A stretch of 36,760 bases of DNA, from NCBI GenBank assembly GCA_017478085.1, contig JAFVEE010000028.1, positions 1-36,760 of the forward strand, in the 5' to 3' direction. The notes below the pieces were generated by a model. The model was not told the DNA's origin and ran no database searches. It saw only the letters and a program-made list of their open reading frames with translations. Positions 6,241 to 28,657 of this stretch are shown one piece after another. A program made the translations under genes and the position numbers. This stretch comes from Prevotella sp. (lineage in GTDB: Bacteria; Bacteroidota; Bacteroidia; Bacteroidales; Bacteroidaceae). Positions within the stretch are counted from its first letter, which is position 1. Every line of letters begins with the position of its first letter.

Positions 6241-7575
6241 CTACAGCAGTTCGGGCAGTTGGTACAGCTTCGTGCCGTTCGAGCCCTTCACCAGGATGGT
6301 GCGCCCCTCGGGCTGCTCCGTGGCGAGGGCCGTCTTCACCTTCTCTACATCGTGGAAGCGACGGAAGGGGCAGTCGGTCTTGCCGAACTCCTCGCCCACG
6401 AGCCATACCTCTTCAACGTTCATCAGACCGATGAAATCGACGATTTTCTGGTGTTCCTCCTGACTGGCCTCGCCCAGTTCGCGCATATCGCCCAGGATGA
6501 GCATCTTGTGGCTGGCCTCCATCTGCTGGAAGTTCTCCAGGGCGGCCATCATGCTCGACGGGTTGGCGTTGTAGGCATCGACAATCAGTCGGTTGCGCTG
6601 CGTCTGGACCAGCTGCGAGCGGCTGTTGGTGGGCTGGTAGCTCTCCAGGGCATGACAAATCTTCTTGCGGTCGACGCCGAAGTTGATGCCCACGGCGATG
6701 GCAGCCAGCAGGTTGTCGATATTATAGGCCCCGATGAGCTGCGTCTGCACCTTGTGCCATTTGGTAGAGCGGCCTTCCTCCTCGAGCGTGGCCAGCGGCT
6801 CGCGCCAACGGAACTTCAGCATGGGCGAGCACTCGATGACCTCGCCCGAGATGCACTGGTACTGTTTCTCGGGGTCGGTGCTGTAGGGGGTGATCCAGAG
6901 CGTGTCCTCGTCCTGTATCTGGTCTACCAGGAACTCGTTGTCGGCATCCAGGAATATCAGTCCGTCCTCGCGCGTGCGCAGATAGTCGTACAGCTCGGTC
7001 TTGGTCTTGATGACCCCCTCGAACGAGCCGAAGCCCTGCAGGTGGGCCCGCCCCACGTTGGTGATCAGTCCGCACGTGGGCTCGGCCGTCTCGGCCAGCG
7101 TCTTGATGTCGCCCGGATGGCTGGCCCCCATCTCGATGATGGCAATCTCGTGCTCACGGTTCAGTCGCATGAGCGTCTTCGGCACGCCCACGTCGTTGTT
7201 GAAGTTGCCCTCGGTGGCCAGCACGTTGTACTTCTCGGCCAGCACGGCGCGTACCAGCTCCTTGGTGGTCGTCTTGCCGTTGGTGCCCGTGATGCCAATG
7301 ACGGGAATGGCGAACTGGCGGCGATGCTCGCGGGCCAGCAGCTTGAAGGTCTGCAAGCAGTCGTCGACTACGATGAAATGGTCGTTTTCGGCATATTCCG
7401 GCTCGTCGATAATGGCATAGGAGCAGCCCTTGGCGAGTGCTGCCCCGGCAAACTGGTTGCCATTGAACGAGGCCCCCTTCAGGGCCAGAAAGATGCTCCC
7501 TTCGGGGCAGTCCCTGCTGTCGGTGGTGATGCACGGGTGCTGCCTGTACAGCTGGTATAATTCCTTAATATCCAT
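6241..7575 (-). CDS. murF: UDP-N-acetylmuramoyl-tripeptide--D-alanyl-D-alanine ligase
   Basis: 444 residues. The enzyme adds D-Ala-D-Ala to UDP-MurNAc-tripeptide, the last cytoplasmic step in making the peptidoglycan pentapeptide. Mur-ligase landmarks are in order: the N-terminal substrate domain (TTDSRDCPEGSIFLALKG), the ATP P-loop GITGTNGKTTTKE (about residues 91-103), TEGNFNNDVGVP, IIEMGASHPGDI, and the C-terminal DAYNANPSSM and LILGDMRELG blocks. The length is normal for MurF. Two adjacent ATGs (7578 and 7575) could start it; I use MDIKELY. Here murF is not in a dcw cluster but heads an operon with two envelope proteins of unknown function. A -7 box (7606-7599) lies just upstream. Confidence 0.95.
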   Translation of the reverse strand: MDIKELYQLYRQHPCITTDSRDCPEGSIFLALKGASFNGNQFAGAALAKGCSYAIIDEPEYAENDHFIVVDDCLQTFKLLAREHRRQFAIPVIGITGTNGKTTTKELVRAVLAEKYNVLATEGNFNNDVGVPKTLMRLNREHEIAIIEMGASHPGDIKTLAETAEPTCGLITNVGRAHLQGFGSFEGVIKTKTELYDYLRTREDGLIFLDADNEFLVDQIQDEDTLWITPYSTDPEKQYQCISGEVIECSPMLKFRWREPLATLEEEGRSTKWHKVQTQLIGAYNIDNLLAAIAVGINFGVDRKKICHALESYQPTNSRSQLVQTQRNRLIVDAYNANPSSMMAALENFQQMEASHKMLILGDMRELGEASQEEHQKIVDFIGLMNVEEVWLVGEEFGKTDCPFRRFHDVEKVKTALATEQPEGRTILVKGSNGTKLYQLPELL

Positions 7576-7674: not shown

Positions 7675-7777
7675 AACGAGGGCTCCATTGCAACGGAACG
7701 GAGCCCCCGTTGCGCTGCAACGGAGGCTCCATTAGGATGCAACGGGGCCTTGGCTGCGTGCTAACGGAGCCTCCGTT
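7675..7777. repeat. Array A: five 22-bp palindromic repeat units
   Basis: Five units begin at exactly 22-bp steps: 7675, 7697, 7719, 7741, 7763. Each is a 15-bp near-palindrome related to AACGGAGCCTCCGTT (outer 6-bp arms around a GCC or GGC centre) followed by a 7-bp spacer that differs between units. Units 1 and 3 carry the GGC centre and units 2, 4 and 5 the GCC centre. Unit 4 (AACGGGGCCTTGGCT) is the most decayed. The array lies between the stop of an AraC gene (7795) and the murF promoter, both on the minus strand. The same family recurs at 18733 and 27261. Confidence 0.9.
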
Positions 7778-7794: not shown

Positions 7795-8670
7795 CTACCT
7801 GTGGTGGCGGAACTCGCTGGGCGAAACGCCCAGGTGCTTGCGCACGTAGCTGCCGAAGTGGCTCATATTGGCAAAGCCCAGCTTGGCCGATATTTCCTTG
7901 ATGCTCAGGTTCGAGTTCTTCAGGTAGAAGCGTATGTCTTCGGTGGTGTACTGGATGATCCAGTCGGAGGCCGTCTTGTCGCTGTACTTCAGGCAGAGCA
8001 TGGTGAGGTACTTGGGGGTGATGGCCAGCTGGCTGGCATAGTGGCTGATGGGGCGGCGCTTCACCTCGTTGCCCGAGATGAGGCGCAGGAAACGGTTGAA
8101 GAGCACCTTGCCCTGCGACAGCTTCACTTCGTCGTGAATGTCCTGCAGGTCTTCCAGAATCTGGCACAGCTCCAGGAGGAAGGCCCTGATTAGGGTGGGC
8201 ACAATCTCGTGGTGGCTGTTCTGGCTCCGGATCTTCGAGGCAATGAGGGCATGGTATAGGCGGAGATCCTCGCGTATTTGCTCTGGCAGGTGGGTGATGC
8301 AGGGCCGCCCGGAGAAGATGGCGCGGTGCCATACGTCGATCTTGTCGTGGAGCAGCCGCTGAATGACGTGGTCCGACAGGCAGATGACGTTGCATGCCGC
8401 CTCGGGGGTGGCATCTGTCTGGTCGACGGGCTGGTTGGAGGCGTAGAGGAACAGGTCGCCTGAATTGATGGTAAAGTCTTCCTCGTTGATGATTACCGTC
8501 AGCGAGTCGGAGTTGCACATTACAATCATGTTGCTCGCAGGCTTCAAGGGGGGCAGTTTCGACAGGTCGTTCACATTGTCGAAGAGCTGTATTTCACCTT
8601 CATTGAAGTCTACGATGAGATTTCCGAACTGTGCATTGCTTCTTTGGTCATTTTGCGTCACGTTGGCCAT
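7795..8670 (-). CDS. AraC-family transcriptional regulator
   Basis: 291 residues. An N-terminal cupin-like sensor region of roughly 160 residues (IVMCNSDSLTVIINEEDFTI and INSGDLFLYA resemble the beta-barrel of AraC sensors) is followed by a C-terminal AraC/XylS double HTH: ITPKYLTMLCLKYSDKTASD, then LSIKEISAKLGFANMSHFGS and the closing GVSPSEFRHHR. It is cytoplasmic, with no membrane segment. It is divergent from the glycine-zipper lipoprotein across a 272-nt AT-rich gap containing a perfect palindrome (8796-8807), a candidate operator. Its HTH closely resembles that of the regulator at 23063-23941. The effector is unknown. Confidence 0.9.
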   Translation of the reverse strand: MANVTQNDQRSNAQFGNLIVDFNEGEIQLFDNVNDLSKLPPLKPASNMIVMCNSDSLTVIINEEDFTINSGDLFLYASNQPVDQTDATPEAACNVICLSDHVIQRLLHDKIDVWHRAIFSGRPCITHLPEQIREDLRLYHALIASKIRSQNSHHEIVPTLIRAFLLELCQILEDLQDIHDEVKLSQGKVLFNRFLRLISGNEVKRRPISHYASQLAITPKYLTMLCLKYSDKTASDWIIQYTTEDIRFYLKNSNLSIKEISAKLGFANMSHFGSYVRKHLGVSPSEFRHHR

Positions 8671-9689: not shown

Positions 9690-10276
9690 TGTCTGAAGTA
9701 TTCCTCAATGCGTTCGAGGAAACTCTTGCGTGCAGTGCTCTCCATGTGGCGCTGCACTTTTTTGTGGTCTATGAGCAGCTCTTCCTGCCAGATGGGCTTC
9801 AGGGTGTCGGCCATCTCGATAGAGTCTATCCTGAGCTTGGGCAGCTCTATCTTGTGCTCGTGGGTGGGGCGCAGGGGTATGGTAATATCGTCGTCGACCG
9901 CCTCGACCACCACGGTGGCTATGCCCTGGGCAATCATGCCCAGCTCGCGGGCCGCTCCCCACGACAGGTCGACAATGCGACCGCGCACGTAGGGCCCCCG
10001 GTCGTTCACCTTGACCACCACCGAGCGGCCATTGTCCACATGCGTCACCCGCAGGTGGGTGCCGAAGGGCAGCGTTCTGTGGGCGCAGGTCATAGAGTCA
10101 TGGTGCAGTCGCTCGCCACTGGCTGTGCGTGCCCCCGTGGCCCGTTTGGCATAGAACGATGCCTTGCCCCGCTGCGACTGGCTGTAGGCCGGAGTAAAAG
10201 AAAAATGATAAATGATGAATGACAGAACTGCCACCCACAAGTGCCAGTGCTTTTTTCTTGCAAGCCTTGCGCCCAT
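9686..10276 (-). CDS. RlpA-like septal ring lytic transglycosylase family protein
   Basis: 196 residues from the preferred start at 10276 (MGARLARKKHWHLWVAVLSF); an ATG at 10303 would add nine residues (MMNDKRGAT) derived largely from an inverted repeat. After an export signal ending near AYSQ comes a double-psi beta-barrel of the RlpA family: GKASFYAKRATGARTASGER, the TCAHRTLPFGTHLRVTH block and the VKVNDRGPYVRGRIVDLS block with conserved NDRGP. RlpA proteins bind or cleave stem-peptide-poor glycan strands at the septum. This one lacks a SPOR domain; its tail is short, charged and helical. Its stop overlaps that of the convergent lipoprotein gene. The signal peptide is encoded within the inverted repeat at 10203-10312. 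Confidence 0.85.
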   Translation of the reverse strand: MGARLARKKHWHLWVAVLSFIIYHFSFTPAYSQSQRGKASFYAKRATGARTASGERLHHDSMTCAHRTLPFGTHLRVTHVDNGRSVVVKVNDRGPYVRGRIVDLSWGAARELGMIAQGIATVVVEAVDDDITIPLRPTHEHKIELPKLRIDSIEMADTLKPIWQEELLIDHKKVQRHMESTARKSFLERIEEYFRH

Positions 10277-10312
10277 CGTGGCGCCGCGTTTGTCATTCAT
10301 CATTTATCATTT
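10203..10312. repeat. Inverted repeat, two 22-nt arms flanking 66 nt
   Basis: Positions 10203-10224 are the exact reverse complement of 10291-10312, with 66 nt between. Arm 1 encodes part of the RlpA-like signal peptide hydrophobic core (SFIIYHFSF); arm 2 spans the alternative upstream start codons. In mRNA the arms would form a long AU-rich stem enclosing the proximal coding region. Confidence 0.85.
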
Positions 10313-10345
10313 ATTATTTAGGTAGGCGGCCCAAGCTGCCAACCG

Positions 10346-16420: not shown

Positions 16421-16467
16421 ATTCGGACAATTGTACAGATATTTGTACGATTGTCCGAATTCTTTTA
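16421..16467 (+). terminator. Terminator of the OPT/propeller/GH28 group
   Basis: ATTCGGACAAT (16421-16431) pairs exactly with 16450-16460. Five further inner pairs (one G-T) give a 16-bp stem with an 8-nt loop, followed by TCTTTTA. It begins 10 nt after the GH28 stop. Confidence 0.75.
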
Positions 16468-16480
16468 TACCGTTTCTGCC

Positions 16481-16488
16481 TACCTTTG
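16481..16488 (+). promoter_or_regulatory. -7 box of the PL11 lyase gene
   Basis: TACCTTTG, 28 nt before the start codon at 16517, just after the upstream terminator. No good -33 match is at the normal distance. Confidence 0.5.
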
Positions 16489-16516
16489 CATCAGAAAAAC
16501 TACTAAACGACTGAAT

Positions 16517-18697
16517 ATGAGAAAAAAGACTTTACTCCTTACCGCAATGACCGCCTGCGCCATGCTCTCGGCCACTGCACAGCCCCAGCCTCAGGGTATG
16601 GGCCGTCGGCAGATGTGGGCATCGGTCAATGCCCTTAGTAATGCTTCGACGGGCGATTACACTCAGCAAAACAACAAGTTGCTCATCAGCTGGCGAATGC
16701 TGCCCAGCGACGACTGGGACACCTCGTTCCTCCTGTATTGTGGTTCGGCCACGGCAGAGAATCCTTCTACCTATTCCAGGGTCAGCCCGTCGCCCATCAA
16801 GAATGCCACCTGCTACCAGACCTCTATCCGCTCCACCGCTACCAAGTACTTCCTGCTGCCGGGCGATTTCCCCTATGCCTCGAAGACACTGCTCATTAGC
16901 GCCGAAGAGCGGCAGGCCATGCGCGATGCTGCCATCGACTCGCTGGTGGTCGACGAGCGCATCTATAAGGACAAGCTGCCCTACCTCTCCATCCCGCTTC
17001 AGGACACGAAGGATGTGTATGCCGGCGACGACCTGGAGTATCAGGCCAACGACGTGAGCGTGGGCGACCTGGATGGCGACGGCGAGTTCGAGATTGTGGT
17101 GAAGCGCCTGCAGTCGCCCAAGGGCCACCTGGATGGCGGCACGGGGGCCAGCTACAGCAGCCACAACACCATCTATGCCGTGATCTGGGATGCCTATAAG
17201 CTCGACGGCACCCTGCTCTGGCGCATCAAGGGCGGCCCCGGTATCATCCTGGGCAACAGCTCGGCCTTTGCCATAGCCGACTTCGATGGCGACGGCTGTG
17301 CCGAGATGGCCATCCGCACCTGCGAGGGCACCGTGTTTGGCGACGGGCAGGAGATTCCCGATACCAACGGCGACGGCAAGATAGACTACCGCACCTGGGG
17401 CAACGAAAACTCGAGCAGCCCCGGATGGGTAGACCACTACAACTCGGCTGGCCCTGAGTTCATCTCGATCATCGACGGCAAGACGGGTCGCGAGCTGGCC
17501 CGCGACAACTTCATAGCCCGCGAGACCAGCGAGTCCTGGGGCGACGGCTACTGGAAGCGTGCCTGCTCGTTCCGCGTGGGCGTGGCCTGCTTCGACAATC
17601 TGCCCTCGGTGGTCTTCGGTCGTGGCGTCTATGCCCGCTCGGTGCTCGAGGCCTGGGACTATCGCGACGGCAAGCTGACCCGCCGCTGGCGCTTCGACAG
17701 TGCCAAGGCTGGCGGCAGCACCACCAATAAGGACGGAAAGCCCAACAGCGCCTATGGCGGTCAGGGCAACCACTCGTTCAACACGGCCGACCTCGATGGC
17801 GACGGCAAGGACGAGGTGATGTATGGCTCGATGGCCATCGACGACGACGGCTACGGCCTCTGGAGCACACAGCTGGGCCATGGCGATGCCAACCACGTGG
17901 GCCGCTTCCTGCCCGACCGCGAGGGTCTGCAGGTGTACCACTGCTTAGAGAGCGGAAAGACCATGGTGGCCCTGCACGATGCCAAGGACGGCAAGGTGAT
18001 CTGGAAGAAAGAAGGCAGCAGCGACAACGATACGGGCCGCTGCCTCGTGGCCGACATCGATCCCAACTCGCCGGGCTGCGAGTTCTGGTGGGCAGGCAGC
18101 AATGCCTATTCGCAGGACGGGTCGAGAGACTTGGGCTACAGCCCCTCGTCGTGCAATATGGCCATCTGGTTCGATGGCAAGCTGTCGCGCCAGCTCATCA
18201 ACGCGCCCAGCGGTGGTGGCGGCACCATCAGCAACGACCGCGATGGTGGCCGCGTGTTCACGGTCTATCGCTACAGCTCGCACTTCATCAATGGCACCAA
18301 GGCCAACCCCTCGTGGTATGGCGACTTCCTGGGTGACTGGCGCGAGGAGTTCATCGTGCCCGACAACACGCTGGTGGGCGACCTGAAGATCTTCTCTACC
18401 TGGTACCCCACTGACTATAAGTTCCCCTGGCTCATGACCGACCACACCTACTGGATGCAGACGCTCAACCAGAACATTGGCTACAACCAGCCCAACCACA
18501 TTGGCGGCTACTACCTGGGCAACGGCATGGATATGTCGAAGGTTCCTGTAGGCGTGACCACGGGCATTCGCGACGTGCAGACGGCCACGCAGCAGGGCCC
18601 CAGGGCCGACCAGCGCATCTACGACCTGAGTGGCCGCGTGGTGCAGAACCCCGGCCACGGCATCTACGTGCAGGGCGGCAAGAAGGTTGTCTTTTAG
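16517..18697 (+). CDS. Rhamnogalacturonan lyase, polysaccharide lyase family 11
   Basis: 726 residues beginning MRKKTLLLTAMTACAMLSATAQ (16517), an export signal. PL11 hallmarks follow: an N-terminal beta-sandwich (WRMLPSDDWDTSFLLYCG) and then an eight-bladed propeller with several calcium-binding DxDxDG loops (VGDLDGDGEFEIVVKR, IADFDGDGCAEMAIRT, DTNGDGKIDYRTWG, TADLDGDGKDEVMYGSM). The C-terminus has a Bacteroidetes tail (RIYDLSGRVV...GIYVQGGKK). The enzyme cleaves the rhamnose-galacturonate backbone of rhamnogalacturonan I by beta-elimination. It has its own -7 box after the GH28 terminator and ends 31 nt before the start of the array B hairpin, which probably terminates it. Confidence 0.92.
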   Translation: MRKKTLLLTAMTACAMLSATAQPQPQGMGRRQMWASVNALSNASTGDYTQQNNKLLISWRMLPSDDWDTSFLLYCGSATAENPSTYSRVSPSPIKNATCYQTSIRSTATKYFLLPGDFPYASKTLLISAEERQAMRDAAIDSLVVDERIYKDKLPYLSIPLQDTKDVYAGDDLEYQANDVSVGDLDGDGEFEIVVKRLQSPKGHLDGGTGASYSSHNTIYAVIWDAYKLDGTLLWRIKGGPGIILGNSSAFAIADFDGDGCAEMAIRTCEGTVFGDGQEIPDTNGDGKIDYRTWGNENSSSPGWVDHYNSAGPEFISIIDGKTGRELARDNFIARETSESWGDGYWKRACSFRVGVACFDNLPSVVFGRGVYARSVLEAWDYRDGKLTRRWRFDSAKAGGSTTNKDGKPNSAYGGQGNHSFNTADLDGDGKDEVMYGSMAIDDDGYGLWSTQLGHGDANHVGRFLPDREGLQVYHCLESGKTMVALHDAKDGKVIWKKEGSSDNDTGRCLVADIDPNSPGCEFWWAGSNAYSQDGSRDLGYSPSSCNMAIWFDGKLSRQLINAPSGGGGTISNDRDGGRVFTVYRYSSHFINGTKANPSWYGDFLGDWREEFIVPDNTLVGDLKIFSTWYPTDYKFPWLMTDHTYWMQTLNQNIGYNQPNHIGGYYLGNGMDMSKVPVGVTTGIRDVQTATQQGPRADQRIYDLSGRVVQNPGHGIYVQGGKKVVF

Positions 18698-18728
18698 AAC
18701 AGTGTGAAATAACCGCTGCTTCGTTACT

Positions 18729-18773
18729 ACACAACGGAGGCTCCATTGACCATCAATGGAGCCTCCGTTGTGT
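18729..18773. terminator. Perfect 20-bp hairpin within array B, likely bidirectional terminator
   Basis: Positions 18729-18748 are exactly complementary to 18754-18773, leaving a 5-nt loop (ACCAT). The stem is made by repeat units 1 and 2 in opposite orientation plus matching flanks. It lies between two convergent genes (PL11 lyase and Na/phosphate symporter). There is no T-tract, so intrinsic termination is plausible but not proved. Confidence 0.55.
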
Positions 18774-18813
18774 TGTAATGGAGCCTTCGTTGCGTTGTAA
18801 CGGAGGCTCCGTT
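18733..18813. repeat. Array B: four 22-bp palindromic repeat units
   Basis: Units start at 18733, 18755, 18777 and 18799, each exactly 22 bp apart: AACGGAGGCTCCATT, AATGGAGCCTCCGTT, AATGGAGCCTTCGTT, AACGGAGGCTCCGTT. Spacers are GACCATC, GTGTTGT and GCGTTGT. Orientation by central triplet is GGC, GCC, GCC, GGC, so units 1/2 and 3/4 can pair fully in RNA (3/4 with two G-U pairs). The last unit ends 4 nt before the stop codon of the minus-strand symporter gene. Confidence 0.92.
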
Positions 18814-18817
18814 GTAT

Positions 18818-20566
18818 TTAAGCCTCGCGCTGGCGGGTGCCCATGCGGGCCTCTACCACGTTCACCACGTAGTCGCCCAGCTTCTCGCACTCGTTCACCA
18901 GGTCTATGTAGATGGTGCCCTCGGCGTAGGTGTACTCGTGGTTGTTCACGTCGATGATGTTCTGCGCCTTCAGCTGGTTGCGGTAGTTGTTGATCTCGTT
19001 CTCGATGTTGAACGTGCGGTTCACGTTGAATGCCTCCTTTCGGCCACCCATCAGCTGGTTCATCTGCGTCAGCGCCTGGTCGGTCAGTCCCATCATCTGG
19101 TGCAGGTGCTCATACTGCTTCTCGATGAAGTGGTCCTGCTTGGCGGCAAACTTGCGGTTGATGGTGCGGGCCATGTTGTAGCACGAGTCGCCGATCGACT
19201 CCAGCTCGCTCACCTCGCGCAGCATGGCGCGAATCTTGCCCTTCGTGTCATCAGAAAGGTGGGCATCGCTCACGCTCTCCAAGTACTGCGCAATCTCCAG
19301 CTCCATATTGTCGCTGATGCTCTCGTACTTCTCAATGCGGGTGAACAGCTTGTTGAACTCCTGCTCGTTGTTCTTGTCCTTGTTTTGCTGGCTCGACGAC
19401 AGGTTGAGCAGCTCCTGCACCATACCGAACATGCGCTGCATGCGCTCGGAGAACGACGATATTTCCTTCTGGGCCTCGAGCACCGAGAGCTCCGGCGTCT
19501 TCATGAAGCCCGCTGTGATGAAGTGCAGGCGGAAGTCCTCCTCCTCGTCCACACGCTTGGGCTTGATCACCCAGCACACGAACTTCTCGATCTGGGGAAT
19601 GAACCAGATCAGGATCATCGTGTTGGCCACGTTAAACGTGGTGTGGAAGGCGGCCAGCACGAAGCTCAGCTTGGCCGAGTTGGCCAGGAAGGCCCCCGTT
19701 CCGGCGGTCTCCTTCGTCATATTGACATCGTAGCCCACCCAGCCGCACACCATGTCGATGAACGGACGGAAGACAAACAGAATCCAGATGACGCCGAACA
19801 CGTTGAAGAACATATGGGCCAGTGCCGCGCGGCGGGCCTGCGTATTGGCCGAGAGTGCGGCCAGGTTCGACGTGACGGTGGTGCCTATGTTCTCACCCAT
19901 CACCAGCGCAATGCCCTGATAGATGGGCAGGGCACCGCTGGAGCACAGAATCATCGTGATGGCCATGACGGCTGCCGACGACTGCACGCAGAACGTGAGC
20001 ACGCCGCCCAGCAGCAGGAACACGATGGTGGTGACGAACGAGTTCGGGTCGAACGAGGCGAAGAAATCGAGCACGGCCTGGTTCTCGCCCAAGTGCATCT
20101 CCGTGCCCGTCTGGCGCAGCGTGCCCAGGGCAAAGATGAGGAACGACAGGCCGAAGAGGAAGTCGCCTATGTAGCGGTATTTCTTCTGATAGATAAGGAT
20201 GATGCCCACCAGGAAGGCCGGCCAGGCCGCATCCATAATGTTGAACGACATACCGGCCGACATAATCCAGGCCGTGAGCGTTGTTCCGATGTTGGCACCC
20301 ATAATGACCGAGATGGCCTGTGCCAGGGTTAGAAGTCCGGCGTTGACAAACGAGACGGTCATCACCGTTGTAGCTGTTGAAGACTGAACCGAGGCCGTTA
20401 CGAGTGTACCCGTAAGCATACCAGTGAAGCGGTTGGTTGTCATGGCTCCCAAGACGTGTCGCAATTGTGGACCCGCCATCTTCTGCAGCGCCTCACTCAT
20501 CGATTTCATACCGAACATCAGCAGGGCGAGTGAGCCGAGAAGTTTGAAAATAACGATAGTCGACAT
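18818..20566 (-). CDS. Na/phosphate-cotransporter family protein with PhoU-like tail
   Basis: 582 residues. The membrane half carries the two inverted-repeat motifs of the Na/Pi-cotransporter II family: VQSSTATTVMTVSFVNAG and MGANIGTTLTAW in the first repeat, VQSSAAVMAITMILCSSG and MGENIGTTVTSNLAAL in the second. Residues about 350-575 are a cytoplasmic helical PhoU-type domain (LEIAQYLESVSDAHLSDDTK, ESIGDSCYNMARTINRKF). The protein would import phosphate with sodium, with the PhoU tail modulating activity. This two-domain form is common in Bacteroidetes. It is divergent from the HExxH protein gene; a TAACTTTG box (20608-20601) lies 35 nt upstream. Confidence 0.9.
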   Translation of the reverse strand: MSTIVIFKLLGSLALLMFGMKSMSEALQKMAGPQLRHVLGAMTTNRFTGMLTGTLVTASVQSSTATTVMTVSFVNAGLLTLAQAISVIMGANIGTTLTAWIMSAGMSFNIMDAAWPAFLVGIILIYQKKYRYIGDFLFGLSFLIFALGTLRQTGTEMHLGENQAVLDFFASFDPNSFVTTIVFLLLGGVLTFCVQSSAAVMAITMILCSSGALPIYQGIALVMGENIGTTVTSNLAALSANTQARRAALAHMFFNVFGVIWILFVFRPFIDMVCGWVGYDVNMTKETAGTGAFLANSAKLSFVLAAFHTTFNVANTMILIWFIPQIEKFVCWVIKPKRVDEEEDFRLHFITAGFMKTPELSVLEAQKEISSFSERMQRMFGMVQELLNLSSSQQNKDKNNEQEFNKLFTRIEKYESISDNMELEIAQYLESVSDAHLSDDTKGKIRAMLREVSELESIGDSCYNMARTINRKFAAKQDHFIEKQYEHLHQMMGLTDQALTQMNQLMGGRKEAFNVNRTFNIENEINNYRNQLKAQNIIDVNNHEYTYAEGTIYIDLVNECEKLGDYVVNVVEARMGTRQREA

Positions 20567-27260: not shown

Positions 27261-27363
27261 AACGGAGCCTCCATTGCAGCTCAACGGAGCCTCCATTGAC
27301 ACACAACGGAGCCTCCGTTGCCACACAATCGGGCCTCCGTTGAGGCGTAACGGAGCCTCCGTT
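27261..27363. repeat. Array C: five 22-bp palindromic repeat units
   Basis: Units start at 27261, 27283, 27305, 27327 and 27349, exactly 22 bp apart. Four units are AACGGAGCCTCC(A/G)TT; the fourth is AATCGGGCCTCCGTT. Spacers are GCAGCTC, GACACAC, GCCACAC and GAGGCGT. All five have the GCC centre, so unlike array B they share one orientation. The array lies between the divergent cotH-like gene and the capsule-locus promoter, 21 nt upstream of its -33 box. Arrays A and C end identically (AACGGAGCCTCCGTTGCAAAA, split after base 15 into unit and tail). Confidence 0.92.
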
Positions 27364-27384: not shown

Positions 27385-27415
27385 TTGGCTATTAGCCGAA
27401 AAAGTTGTACCTTTG
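27385..27415 (+). promoter_or_regulatory. Promoter of the capsule locus
   Basis: TTG (27385-27387), 20 nt, TACCTTTG (27408-27415). It is the only good promoter between array C and upxY, so transcription from it would give a leader of about 450 nt. I see no long inverted repeats flanking it that would make it an invertible capsule promoter. Confidence 0.65.
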
Positions 27416-27652
27416 CAACGATTCTGCGTATGCACTTGTTCGGATGCAATGGTGGATATTCCCATAAACTGCTGATGACGGGTTGCGAGTCTGCGCCGAG
27501 CCAAAGGGCACTCAAATCCCCGAGGCGGATGGGTGGGTTAGCGCAGGATAGACATAAAGAAGCGTTTACGTGACGCTTTGTTCTGGACGCACTGTAAATC
27601 TTGCAAAATTAACAGCTATTTCTGTTCAGGACATGGCAACAGTAGATGCCTC

Positions 27653-27678
27653 GGGATGTGTTTATACGCATCCCTTTT
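27653..27678 (+). terminator. Intrinsic terminator (attenuator) in the upxY leader
   Basis: GGGATGTGT (27653-27661) pairs with ACGCATCCC (27666-27674; one G-U pair) around the loop TTAT and runs into TTTT. It lies about 240 nt after the promoter and about 195 nt before the upxY start, so the operon needs readthrough. Confidence 0.7.
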
Positions 27679-27790
27679 GACGAAGTAGGGCGTAATGCGC
27701 CCTGCCAGTTACAAGGGAATACTATATTCATATCGGCGTGGGCTCTGAAGTTGTCTGTTCAACAGAAATAGGCAATGCAAGAGCCTCAGT

Positions 27791-27825
27791 GCGTGGAACG
27801 GACGGCGACGAACCACGCTTTCTTT
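27791..27825 (+). terminator. Second terminator-like hairpin in the upxY leader
   Basis: GCGTGG (27791-27796) pairs with CCACGC (27813-27818) with a 16-nt loop, followed by TTTCTTT. Its right arm overlaps the alternative start-proximal stem (27816-27863), so the two structures exclude each other. Confidence 0.5.
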
Positions 27826-27871
27826 ATGTGCCCTTGCCAGATTTCTGGCCCCATAAAGAAGCGATACCGAT

Positions 27872-28657
27872 ATGGATGCAACATCCACGAACTACGCGGT
27901 AAGAGCTTTGGATTCTGGGCTTATCCCCAGTACTATCCTCGGAGGGTGCAGTGATGCACAAAATGGGGTGTCGGTGAAATATGTGCCAGAGGTAAGGGTG
28001 GATGACAGGCGTAAGTGGTATGTCTTTCGTGCCAGCTACGGTCGGGCAGAGAAGGCATCAGGCCTAATAGAAGCTTTAGGGCTCAGGACGTATGTTGCCC
28101 GTCATACTGTCCATAAGAGAATAGATGGTCACATTAGGCAAATGAAAGAGCCACTCATACCAGGCATCCTATTCGCTTTCATCACTGAAGAACAGTCCCG
28201 GCTACTCACTAAAGGCGTTGATGCTGACGGTCGTGGGACGATGTTCAATGCCCTCTCGAATGATGATAAAGCGACCGTCGCGCAACTTCCGAAAATCATC
28301 TCCTACTACTATAACCATTTTGAGACAAGGAAAGATGGCACGAACCCTCCGCTTACCATTCCTCATGATGTAATGAACAAATTCATCAAAGCCACCGAAC
28401 CTGAAGGAGATGTCCAACCCGTTGATGAGCATCTGTTCAAGATTGGCGAGGAGGTGGAAGTCGCCGAGGGAGAGTTCAAGGGATTATGCGGCAAGGTACT
28501 GCGTAAGCCTGACAAGAAGAATAGGATTTATGTCCAGCTGCACGAAAAGAAAGTACCGATGATAAACAAGAAGCGCCGCCTGCTCATCAAGCTTCCCTGC
28601 CTCGGATCTTTCAGTTCTGCCCTAATTCCTGTGGCCTATTTCCGCAAGATTGAATAG
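27872..28657 (+). CDS. UpxY-family (NusG-like) transcription antiterminator
   Basis: 261 residues. Residues about 47-160 form a NusG N-terminal domain (KWYVFRASYGRAEKASGLIE, LRTYVARHTV, IPGILFAFIT), and a KOW domain follows near residue 190 (FKIGEEVEVAEGEFKGLCGK). UpxY proteins are the first genes of Bacteroidales capsule loci and keep RNA polymerase from terminating in the locus leader. Here the gene follows a 456-nt leader with terminator hairpins. The 46-residue N-terminal extension before the NGN domain is unusually long and low in recognisable structure; no internal ATG lies near the domain start, so I keep ATG 27872. The start codon is 8 nt after the end of a 12-bp bulged stem (27816-27863) that could affect ribosome access. 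Confidence 0.88.
   Translation: MDATSTNYAVRALDSGLIPSTILGGCSDAQNGVSVKYVPEVRVDDRRKWYVFRASYGRAEKASGLIEALGLRTYVARHTVHKRIDGHIRQMKEPLIPGILFAFITEEQSRLLTKGVDADGRGTMFNALSNDDKATVAQLPKIISYYYNHFETRKDGTNPPLTIPHDVMNKFIKATEPEGDVQPVDEHLFKIGEEVEVAEGEFKGLCGKVLRKPDKKNRIYVQLHEKKVPMINKKRRLLIKLPCLGSFSSALIPVAYFRKIE

Follow-up and report, generated by a model that had tools for sequence, protein, structure and literature searches.

Intergenic arrays of odd palindromes in a 22-bp register in a Prevotella genome and some of its relatives

The window, the whole 36,760-nucleotide stretch of Prevotella sp. DNA that was analyzed, contains three intergenic arrays, each made up of five near-palindromes in a 22-bp register (Table 1). 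Array B occupies the whole gap separating two convergent genes. A search with AACGGAGNCTCCGTT at up to 3 mismatches gave 13 matches in the window, all at the three array sites, compared to 1.20 ± 1.14 expected from 100 dinucleotide shuffles (largest, 5). The matches were spaced by 22 bp, or by 44 bp across the single decayed unit of array A. An earlier note on this DNA had described three intergenic sites of 22-bp-spaced near-palindromes and had counted 5, 4, and 5 units. The sites were confirmed, as were the counts of the two outer arrays. The middle array, however, has a fifth, decayed unit in register (18711-18725, AACCGCTGCTTCGTT, 4 mismatches), bringing its total to 5. Units were counted if they lay in register with at most 5 mismatches, for which the chance per position is 0.0024. 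The view that the arrays are noncoding and are not CRISPR was also supported. When Rfam covariance models were run over the window, two tRNAs alone reached the threshold and the arrays had no match.

Table 1. Positions of the arrays and of their neighboring genes in the window
Feature	Position	Strand	Remarks
Mur ligase-family gene	6241..7560	-	Other side of array A; exact start approximate
Array A	7675..7777	.	Units at 7675, 7697, 7719, 7741 (decayed: AACGGGGCCTTGGCT), and 7763
AraC-type HTH gene	7795..8670	-	Stop codon 17 bp from array A
Rhamnogalacturonan lyase (RGL11)-type gene	16451..18697	+	Ends 13 bp before array B
Array B	18711..18813	.	Units at 18711 (decayed), 18733, 18755, 18777, and 18799
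Na/Pi cotransporter-type gene	18818..20566	-	Stop 4 bp from array B
Array C	27261..27363	.	Units at 27261, 27283, 27305, 27327, and 27349; divergent gap

Two other features of the window were recorded. A gene at 27872-28657 matches NusG and is preceded by a leader of about 450 bases (region 27390-28657), with array C upstream of the leader; we take this gene to resemble the UpxY antiterminators of capsule operons. At 10195-10222 and 10289-10320, short arrays of 7-bp units, TAAATGA and the inverted TTTATCA, face each other and form a long inverted repeat.

The unit is a 17-bp odd palindrome, CAACGGAGSCTCCGTTG, with G or C at its center, followed by about 5 free spacer bases. The host genome (G000; 3.13 Mb in 178 contigs, 76.6% complete) contains 598 unit matches compared to 111 for the reversed pattern, and 255 phased 22-bp dimers compared to 0 for the control, in agreement with the earlier claim of a distinct structured family. 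An average of about 4.5 clear units in each array would give a total of roughly a hundred arrays. The main sample comprised the window and 40 stretches picked around matches (656 kb together) and held 46 multiunit clusters. The spacings of successive matches less than 120 bp apart (n = 161) were 22 bp in 150 cases, 44 bp in 9, and 66 bp and 45 bp in one each. After exclusion of one off-register locus (L098), 45 in-register arrays remained, with five units in 35, six in 6, and four in 4. A further 15 single matches (12 with 3 mismatches and one each with 0, 1, and 2) were not counted as arrays. Twenty more host contigs, unselected for arrays (220 kb), yielded three arrays of 5, 5, and 4 units by the same rule, and a lag scan of unselected host contigs revealed further arrays with variant units.

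The register was also recovered without reference to the unit sequence. We scanned for odd 15-bp palindromes, four in succession (22 of 28 pairs, periods 15 to 33), and found 40 sites at period 22 in the 656 kb, 8 at period 33 (1.5 × 22), and none at other periods. At period 22, the same scan found 3 sites in the second host sample, 8 in Bacteroides pyogenes, and 3 in the Prevotella metagenome-assembled genome (MAG) SUG981, and over these three genomes the only matches at a period other than 22 were at 33 (8 and 1). The periodicity that the earlier note had proposed to look for genome-wide is thus present, both in the spacings between matches and in the sequence-free scan.

The spacers themselves are unrelated between arrays, with an identity of 1.48 of 5 bases at the same unit index and 1.43 of 5 at other indices. 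Within arrays, neighboring spacers are alike (lag-1 direct identity of 2.11 versus 1.40 of 5, z = 7.8), indicating that arrays grew by local duplication, and they match as reverse complements 18 times compared to 10.2 ± 3.0 expected. Although the spacers are randomized, only 1 of the 161 spacings is not a multiple of 22, and neutral drift would presumably have left many others. These results support the earlier proposal of selection on geometry with a free spacer. In the five-unit arrays of the main sample, a G center is favored in the leftmost unit and a C center in the rightmost (46 of 69, p = 0.008), which gives the complete array a weak dyad symmetry.

The host genome carries a second palindrome family in the same register, TATACCATCGGTATA, with 7 dimers on 5 contigs (for example, L215 5350-5430) and none for the control. 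Dimers of this family were absent from five other genomes.

We additionally examined the placement of the arrays relative to genes, which were called by a custom open reading frame and codon score, so that distances are approximate. Three of the 45 arrays had no called gene on one side and were excluded. The 42 placed host arrays lay in 12 convergent, 19 tandem, and 11 divergent gaps, compared to 18, 92, and 41 among 151 reference gaps of at least 130 bp. This is an excess in convergent gaps (p = 0.003) with no deficit in divergent ones. Overlap with called genes was seen for 0 of the 42 placed arrays of the host, the 18 of B. pyogenes, and the 12 of SUG981. Among the host arrays that follow the 3' end of a gene, 30 of 31 begin no more than 50 bp from the stop codon. 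Both stop codons lie within 40 bp of the array in 9 of the 12 convergent cases, so that transcripts must end inside the array or overlap. Stop-to-array distances in other lineages are looser (44 to 339, 25 to 1,347, and 75 to 932 bp).

As a rule, arrays were not kept at orthologous sites in the few cases in which the host could be compared with relatives. The site orthologous to array B is empty in the congener G023, which shares 94% identity with the host over one protein. For one gene (L097/L160), an array stands behind the ortholog in host and G023 with different palindromes, a comparison made from the side of the gene only; in G023, a stretch of N precedes the array. Another gene (L112/L152) is followed by an array in the host and, as judged by eye, by a T-tract hairpin in G023. 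In three congener loci (L130, L134, and L135), short GTGAATA or GAGTTAG repeats stand behind the Na/Pi cotransporter gene, at the site of the host's array B.

The dimer of the host palindrome at up to 2 mismatches was absent from all 39 relatives scanned, 23 of them congeners. At up to 3 mismatches, it was found in 6 of 399 family genomes, with 343 dimers in the host, 9 in G041, 6 of a variant in G130, which belongs to another genus, and a single dimer in each of G421, G366, and G358; the control with the reversed pattern matched 10 times in total, in four genomes. In an order-level scan of 393 genomes, 15 had a match and only the host (70) and G041 (17) were array-like, the matches in G813 (5) and G549 (4) being other repeats and not these arrays. 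A GAGSCTC-based dimer scan of named genomes returned 65 stretches, by title 20 from Bacteroides, 24 from Prevotella or Prevotellaceae, and 21 from others, many of the last being single hairpins. Counts of GAGSCTC-N15-GAGSCTC in 14 genomes with such stretches ranged from 1 to 47, with controls of 0 to 2. The commensal Bacteroides xylanisolvens XB1A is among the species found to carry arrays.

Arm sequence depends on the lineage: Bacteroides has AACAGAGSCTCTGTT, SUG981 has AACTGAGSCTCAGTT, and RGIG4794 has TTTGGAGCCTCCATT together with its reverse complement. Lag scans pointed to further palindromes in two congeners. The units of G023, GATTTAGSCTAAATC, form 21 dimers over the whole genome (control, 0) and none in seven other genomes. 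In G016, a single-contig genome, ATTTGAYGCAAAT dimers numbered 52 + 45 (control, 0), compared to 0 or 1 in five other genomes. The lag-22 signal was clear in the host, SUG981, and B. pyogenes. G023 gave a weaker one, with 5 clusters at 22 and 4 at 18, that of G007 was unconvincing (4 low-complexity clusters), and nothing convincing was found in samples of 80 to 200 kb from G007, G464, G457, G469, and G284. The sequence-free palindrome scan at its threshold found no site at 22 in G023, where there were two at 18 and an even-centered one at 21, and none in G007.

The spacing was 22 bp in 65 of 74 cases in B. pyogenes and in 36 of 43 in SUG981. Unit number differs among these lineages: four is commonest in B. 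pyogenes (8 of 19 arrays, with one array of 14 units, 16 of the 20 stretches having been picked around matches), 3 or 4 units occur in 16 of 17 SUG981 arrays, and 4 to 8 in 22 of 23 G016 arrays, the G016 and G023 counts being made with loose extension rules. The 22-bp repeat architecture is therefore real and present in at least two genera. The spacing itself seems important: in some relatives it stays at 22 bp although the palindromes differ, which makes the claim of selected geometry stronger than the earlier note could know.

The case for the geometry as a conserved trait is good; the mechanism stands as a proposal. We favor cooperative binding of a putative protein to phased duplex DNA at the borders of transcription units, a reading to which we assign a probability of about 0.4. 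Each array would be a duplex-DNA platform of fixed geometry, in which an odd-centered palindrome of about 15 to 19 bp could be bound by a putative protein dimer, one monomer per half-site. A length of 22 bp is about two helical turns, and this period would place successive dimers on the same face of the DNA and so permit cooperative binding. The iterons of plasmid origins are likewise small sets of repeats that bind protein, phased on one DNA face at intervals of about 22 bp, and they belong to a replication origin with its rep gene. The arrays resemble iterons in having sites, here of putative binding, in helical phase, but they are many, dispersed, and palindromic. The platform stands at transcription-unit borders, usually shortly after a stop codon, and dimers lined up there could halt or insulate transcription or serve as a chromosomal anchor.

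The platform reading draws on the 22-bp register with unrelated spacers, on the predominance of five-unit arrays in the host, on the recurrence of the register with other palindromes, and on the proximity to stop codons and the convergent excess. Two points drawn from the genome comparisons count against it: arrays are as a rule not kept at orthologous sites, and the presence of two unrelated palindromes in one genome, and of others in its close relatives, would require several proteins or proteins that evolve fast. It is possible, and we hold it with rather less than even confidence, that the arrays belong to a Bacteroidaceae element class defined by geometry, in which dispersed intergenic odd palindromes are held at 22 bp and the palindrome is lineage specific, with two forms in one genome. 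Such a class would call for a conserved machine able to measure out 22 bp at transcription-unit borders, with sequence recognition that is fast evolving or structural. Because only the 22-bp register is common to the lineages, homology searches would miss the element; if the geometry is selected, a Bacteroidaceae chromosomal element thus escapes them, and altering the spacer length should abolish function whereas altering the spacer sequence should not. If true, this would point to a new DNA-binding system at gene ends, with a bearing on termination, insulation, or the folding of the chromosome in bacteria that are abundant in gut and rumen. The proposals of the earlier note fared unevenly: the distinct family and its geometry are supported, spread by a REP-associated Y1 transposase is not supported, and of the other roles the protein-binding array is favored over RNA hairpins.

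The alternative that we consider unlikely, though a live rival, is that the arrays act as RNA, forming tandem hairpins in 3' untranslated regions that terminate transcription from either side or protect the 3' ends of mRNA against exonucleases. The placement close behind stop codons, on both sides in most convergent cases, fits this alternative too. Paired positions, however, showed no overall covariation within units in the main sample (z = 0.9) and none in 30 unselected SUG981 pairs, which argues against selected hairpins. Perfect 8-bp stems across the spacer were depleted (6 versus 19.9 ± 3.7; with shuffling within unit index, 4 versus 14.2 ± 3.1, and 0 versus 8.9 for stems with both halves consensus). 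Deviations in facing halves were anticorrelated (Spearman −0.28, p = 1.5e-4; within units, 0.05), an effect absent in two other neighbor comparisons. Half-sites thus vary mostly independently, and the depleted stems across spacers and the lack of overall covariation favor a duplex platform over a hairpin. Perfect palindromes within units were mildly depleted as well (20 versus 27.0 ± 4.2; within-index shuffle, 15 versus 22.3 ± 3.7), which counts against the platform.

Some covariation is nevertheless present. In a small number of units, covariation is seen at the outermost pairs of the arms (p ≤ 0.0012 within units; p = 0.0005 across the spacer), and at least four of these units belong to one altered-arm array (L107). 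Nonadjacent pairings were positive for R_i with L_i+2 (z = 3.0) and for L_i with R_i+3 (z = 3.0; 24 perfect versus 12.8). Pooled host core pairs, with variant-arm arrays included, were positive within units (z = 7.0), across the spacer (5.6), and enclosing (6.6). In pattern-selected Bacteroides loci, the enclosing pairs gave z = 3.2, and B. pyogenes was neutral (across, 0.9; within, −0.5). Neighboring units that are exact reverse complements occur at L221 and at several loci of named genomes, and the latter had first suggested hairpins across the spacer. The search pattern itself demanded nearly complementary inner arms, and the signal was absent or negative in the 656-kb host sample and the 30 unselected SUG981 pairs; this candidate was rejected.

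RNA folding predicts highly stable structures for either strand (about −58 kcal/mol per array); these weakened when right halves were shuffled (z = −4.0 and −3.2), not when whole units were (z = −0.9 and −0.1). Array B holds a long hairpin whose flanking spacers pair as well. Changes on the sense strand lean to the GU type (98, versus 70 of the AC type; p = 0.037), and the excess of spacers matching as reverse complements within arrays points the same way. The fold stability, the GU lean, the partial covariation, and the reverse-complement neighbors count against the duplex-protein reading. Tandem arrays, however, gave no clear difference in energy between sense and antisense (−1.1 ± 2.3 kcal/mol, 12 of 19 negative), and RNA hairpins leave the exact 22-bp register unexplained.

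The arrays also lack a U-tract. Canonical U-tract terminators were not enriched at array ends (5 of 39) compared to nonarray convergent ends (10 of 77) or other wide tandem ends (11 of 93). The arrays are thus not supported as intrinsic terminators of the hairpin and T-tract type, nor as replacements for terminators, for which array and nonarray gene ends would differ. The gene behind array B was also compared with its orthologs in congeners, and by the same rule a canonical terminator stood at that site in 7 of 29. A consensus terminator scan of part of the window gave 12 matches versus 6.7 ± 2.6, one of them inside array C, and was not used as evidence. We read the balance of the evidence on pairing as half-sites for a putative dimeric protein; the earlier suggestion of RNA hairpins is weakened by it but stays a live rival.

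Spread by a transposase was likewise suggested in the earlier note. In this alternative, a Y1 transposase of the RAYT type, or a relative, both builds and spreads the arrays as REP-like repeats, which are kept mainly because their insertion behind genes does no harm; we consider it improbable. The placement of the arrays is that described for REPs in the available part of PMC3733652, and according to the available part of PMC6006769, Y1 genes of Bacteroidetes have atypical secondary structures on their flanks, copies of which occur at other places in the genome. In the host, however, the single PF01797 (Y1) gene found (contig C148, L081 1100-2100) is surrounded by other repeats, GGCCTGAAAGGCC and CCCAGGGC..GCCCTGGG palindromes, unlike the 22-bp arrays; a decayed array lies about 1.4 kb upstream, across another gene. 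These surroundings do not support membership in Y1-transposase REPs. No PF01797 match was found in the array-bearing genomes of G023, SUG981, B. pyogenes, and B. fragilis Q1F2, the host and G023 assemblies being incomplete, and the 3-kb loci around the PF01797 genes of B. xylanisolvens, G007, and G442 held no arrays. In G016, arrays stand within about 1 kb on 5 of the 6 flanks of three PF01797 genes, so that arrays and Y1 genes may be linked. These copies are near-identical, lie inside 60 kb, and include a broken one, and therefore represent few independent events; the association may reflect a composite element or a target preference. By comparison with a table in PMC6006769, which was available in part, the Y1 proteins of the host and G016 look like subclass 1.2 (DHVH or DHLH, WQ, and Y.x.Q..HH).

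The arrays were not found to be part of a known IS or MITE end, and a MITE structure with a common leader or tail, inverted ends, and target duplication was not supported. The 400-bp flanks of host arrays share no leader or tail (24 scattered pairwise matches), and the inverted end of BrickBuilt matched once, not at an array, compared to 3.3 expected. There was no target-site duplication (longest shared flank word of 3.49 versus 3.41 ± 0.15), and spacer order revealed no recent array-to-array copies among host arrays. Alternating unit orientation was not found either, the fraction of complementary neighboring centers being 0.34 versus 0.46 expected in the host and 0.25 versus 0.41 in B. pyogenes.

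The least probable reading is that of neutral minisatellites, in which palindrome-aided slippage duplicates 22-bp units without function: it fits the likeness of spacers within arrays, the 14-unit B. pyogenes array, and the differing unit number among lineages, but not the narrow unit number in the host, the conservation of the arms beside random between-array spacers, the near absence of spacings other than multiples of 22, or the same period in unrelated sequences.

As far as our literature search shows, the arrays are an undescribed form of dispersed intergenic palindromic repeats, and no published description of them was found among open-licence PMC papers. The following comparisons rest on the available parts of the papers cited. 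Like REP/BIME elements of the GTAG and CGTC families, which are often less than 20 bp from a stop codon (PMC3733652), the arrays are many dispersed intergenic palindromes placed in convergent gaps or at 3' ends. However, CAACGGAGSCTCCGTTG lacks a GTAG or CGTC tag, the arrays keep a strict 22-bp tandem register, their palindrome changes between close relatives, and no REP-type Y1 gene was found in the host genome, which is 76.6% complete. The tnpA(REP) subclass 2.6 of Bacteroidetes shares the phylum and has repeated structures in dispersed copies, and the available text makes no mention of a 22-bp register (PMC6006769).

The nearest described repeats in the order are BrickBuilt and PINSR. BrickBuilt of Porphyromonas gingivalis is an intergenic tandem repeat with a similar period of 23 nt, present in 19 copies of 1 to 22.8 repeats without spacers, and it lies within a MITE that has a leader, a tail, and IS5-like inverted ends; 22-nt tandem repeats are also reported in strain W83 (PMC4596501). 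In contrast, the arrays have a period of 22 and free spacers and lack leader, tail, and inverted ends. PINSR of Prevotella intermedia and Prevotella nigrescens, compared here by description only, is also lineage specific, intergenic, of high copy number (177 copies in OMA14), and without terminal inverted repeats, but is a single 188-bp sequence (PMC4755523).

Three further repeats were observed. In the host, L230 9979-10080 holds a third, unclassified 22-bp array with units like GCCATCGCTTTGACAA, and L220 2306-2406 holds a 20-bp tandem repeat, TCCCAATCAGTCCCAATCAC. Outside Bacteroidota, a Kiritimatiellae MAG (L047 5730-5830 and L080 717-780) carries AATCGAGGCTCGATT at 22-bp steps, with about two to four consecutive units.
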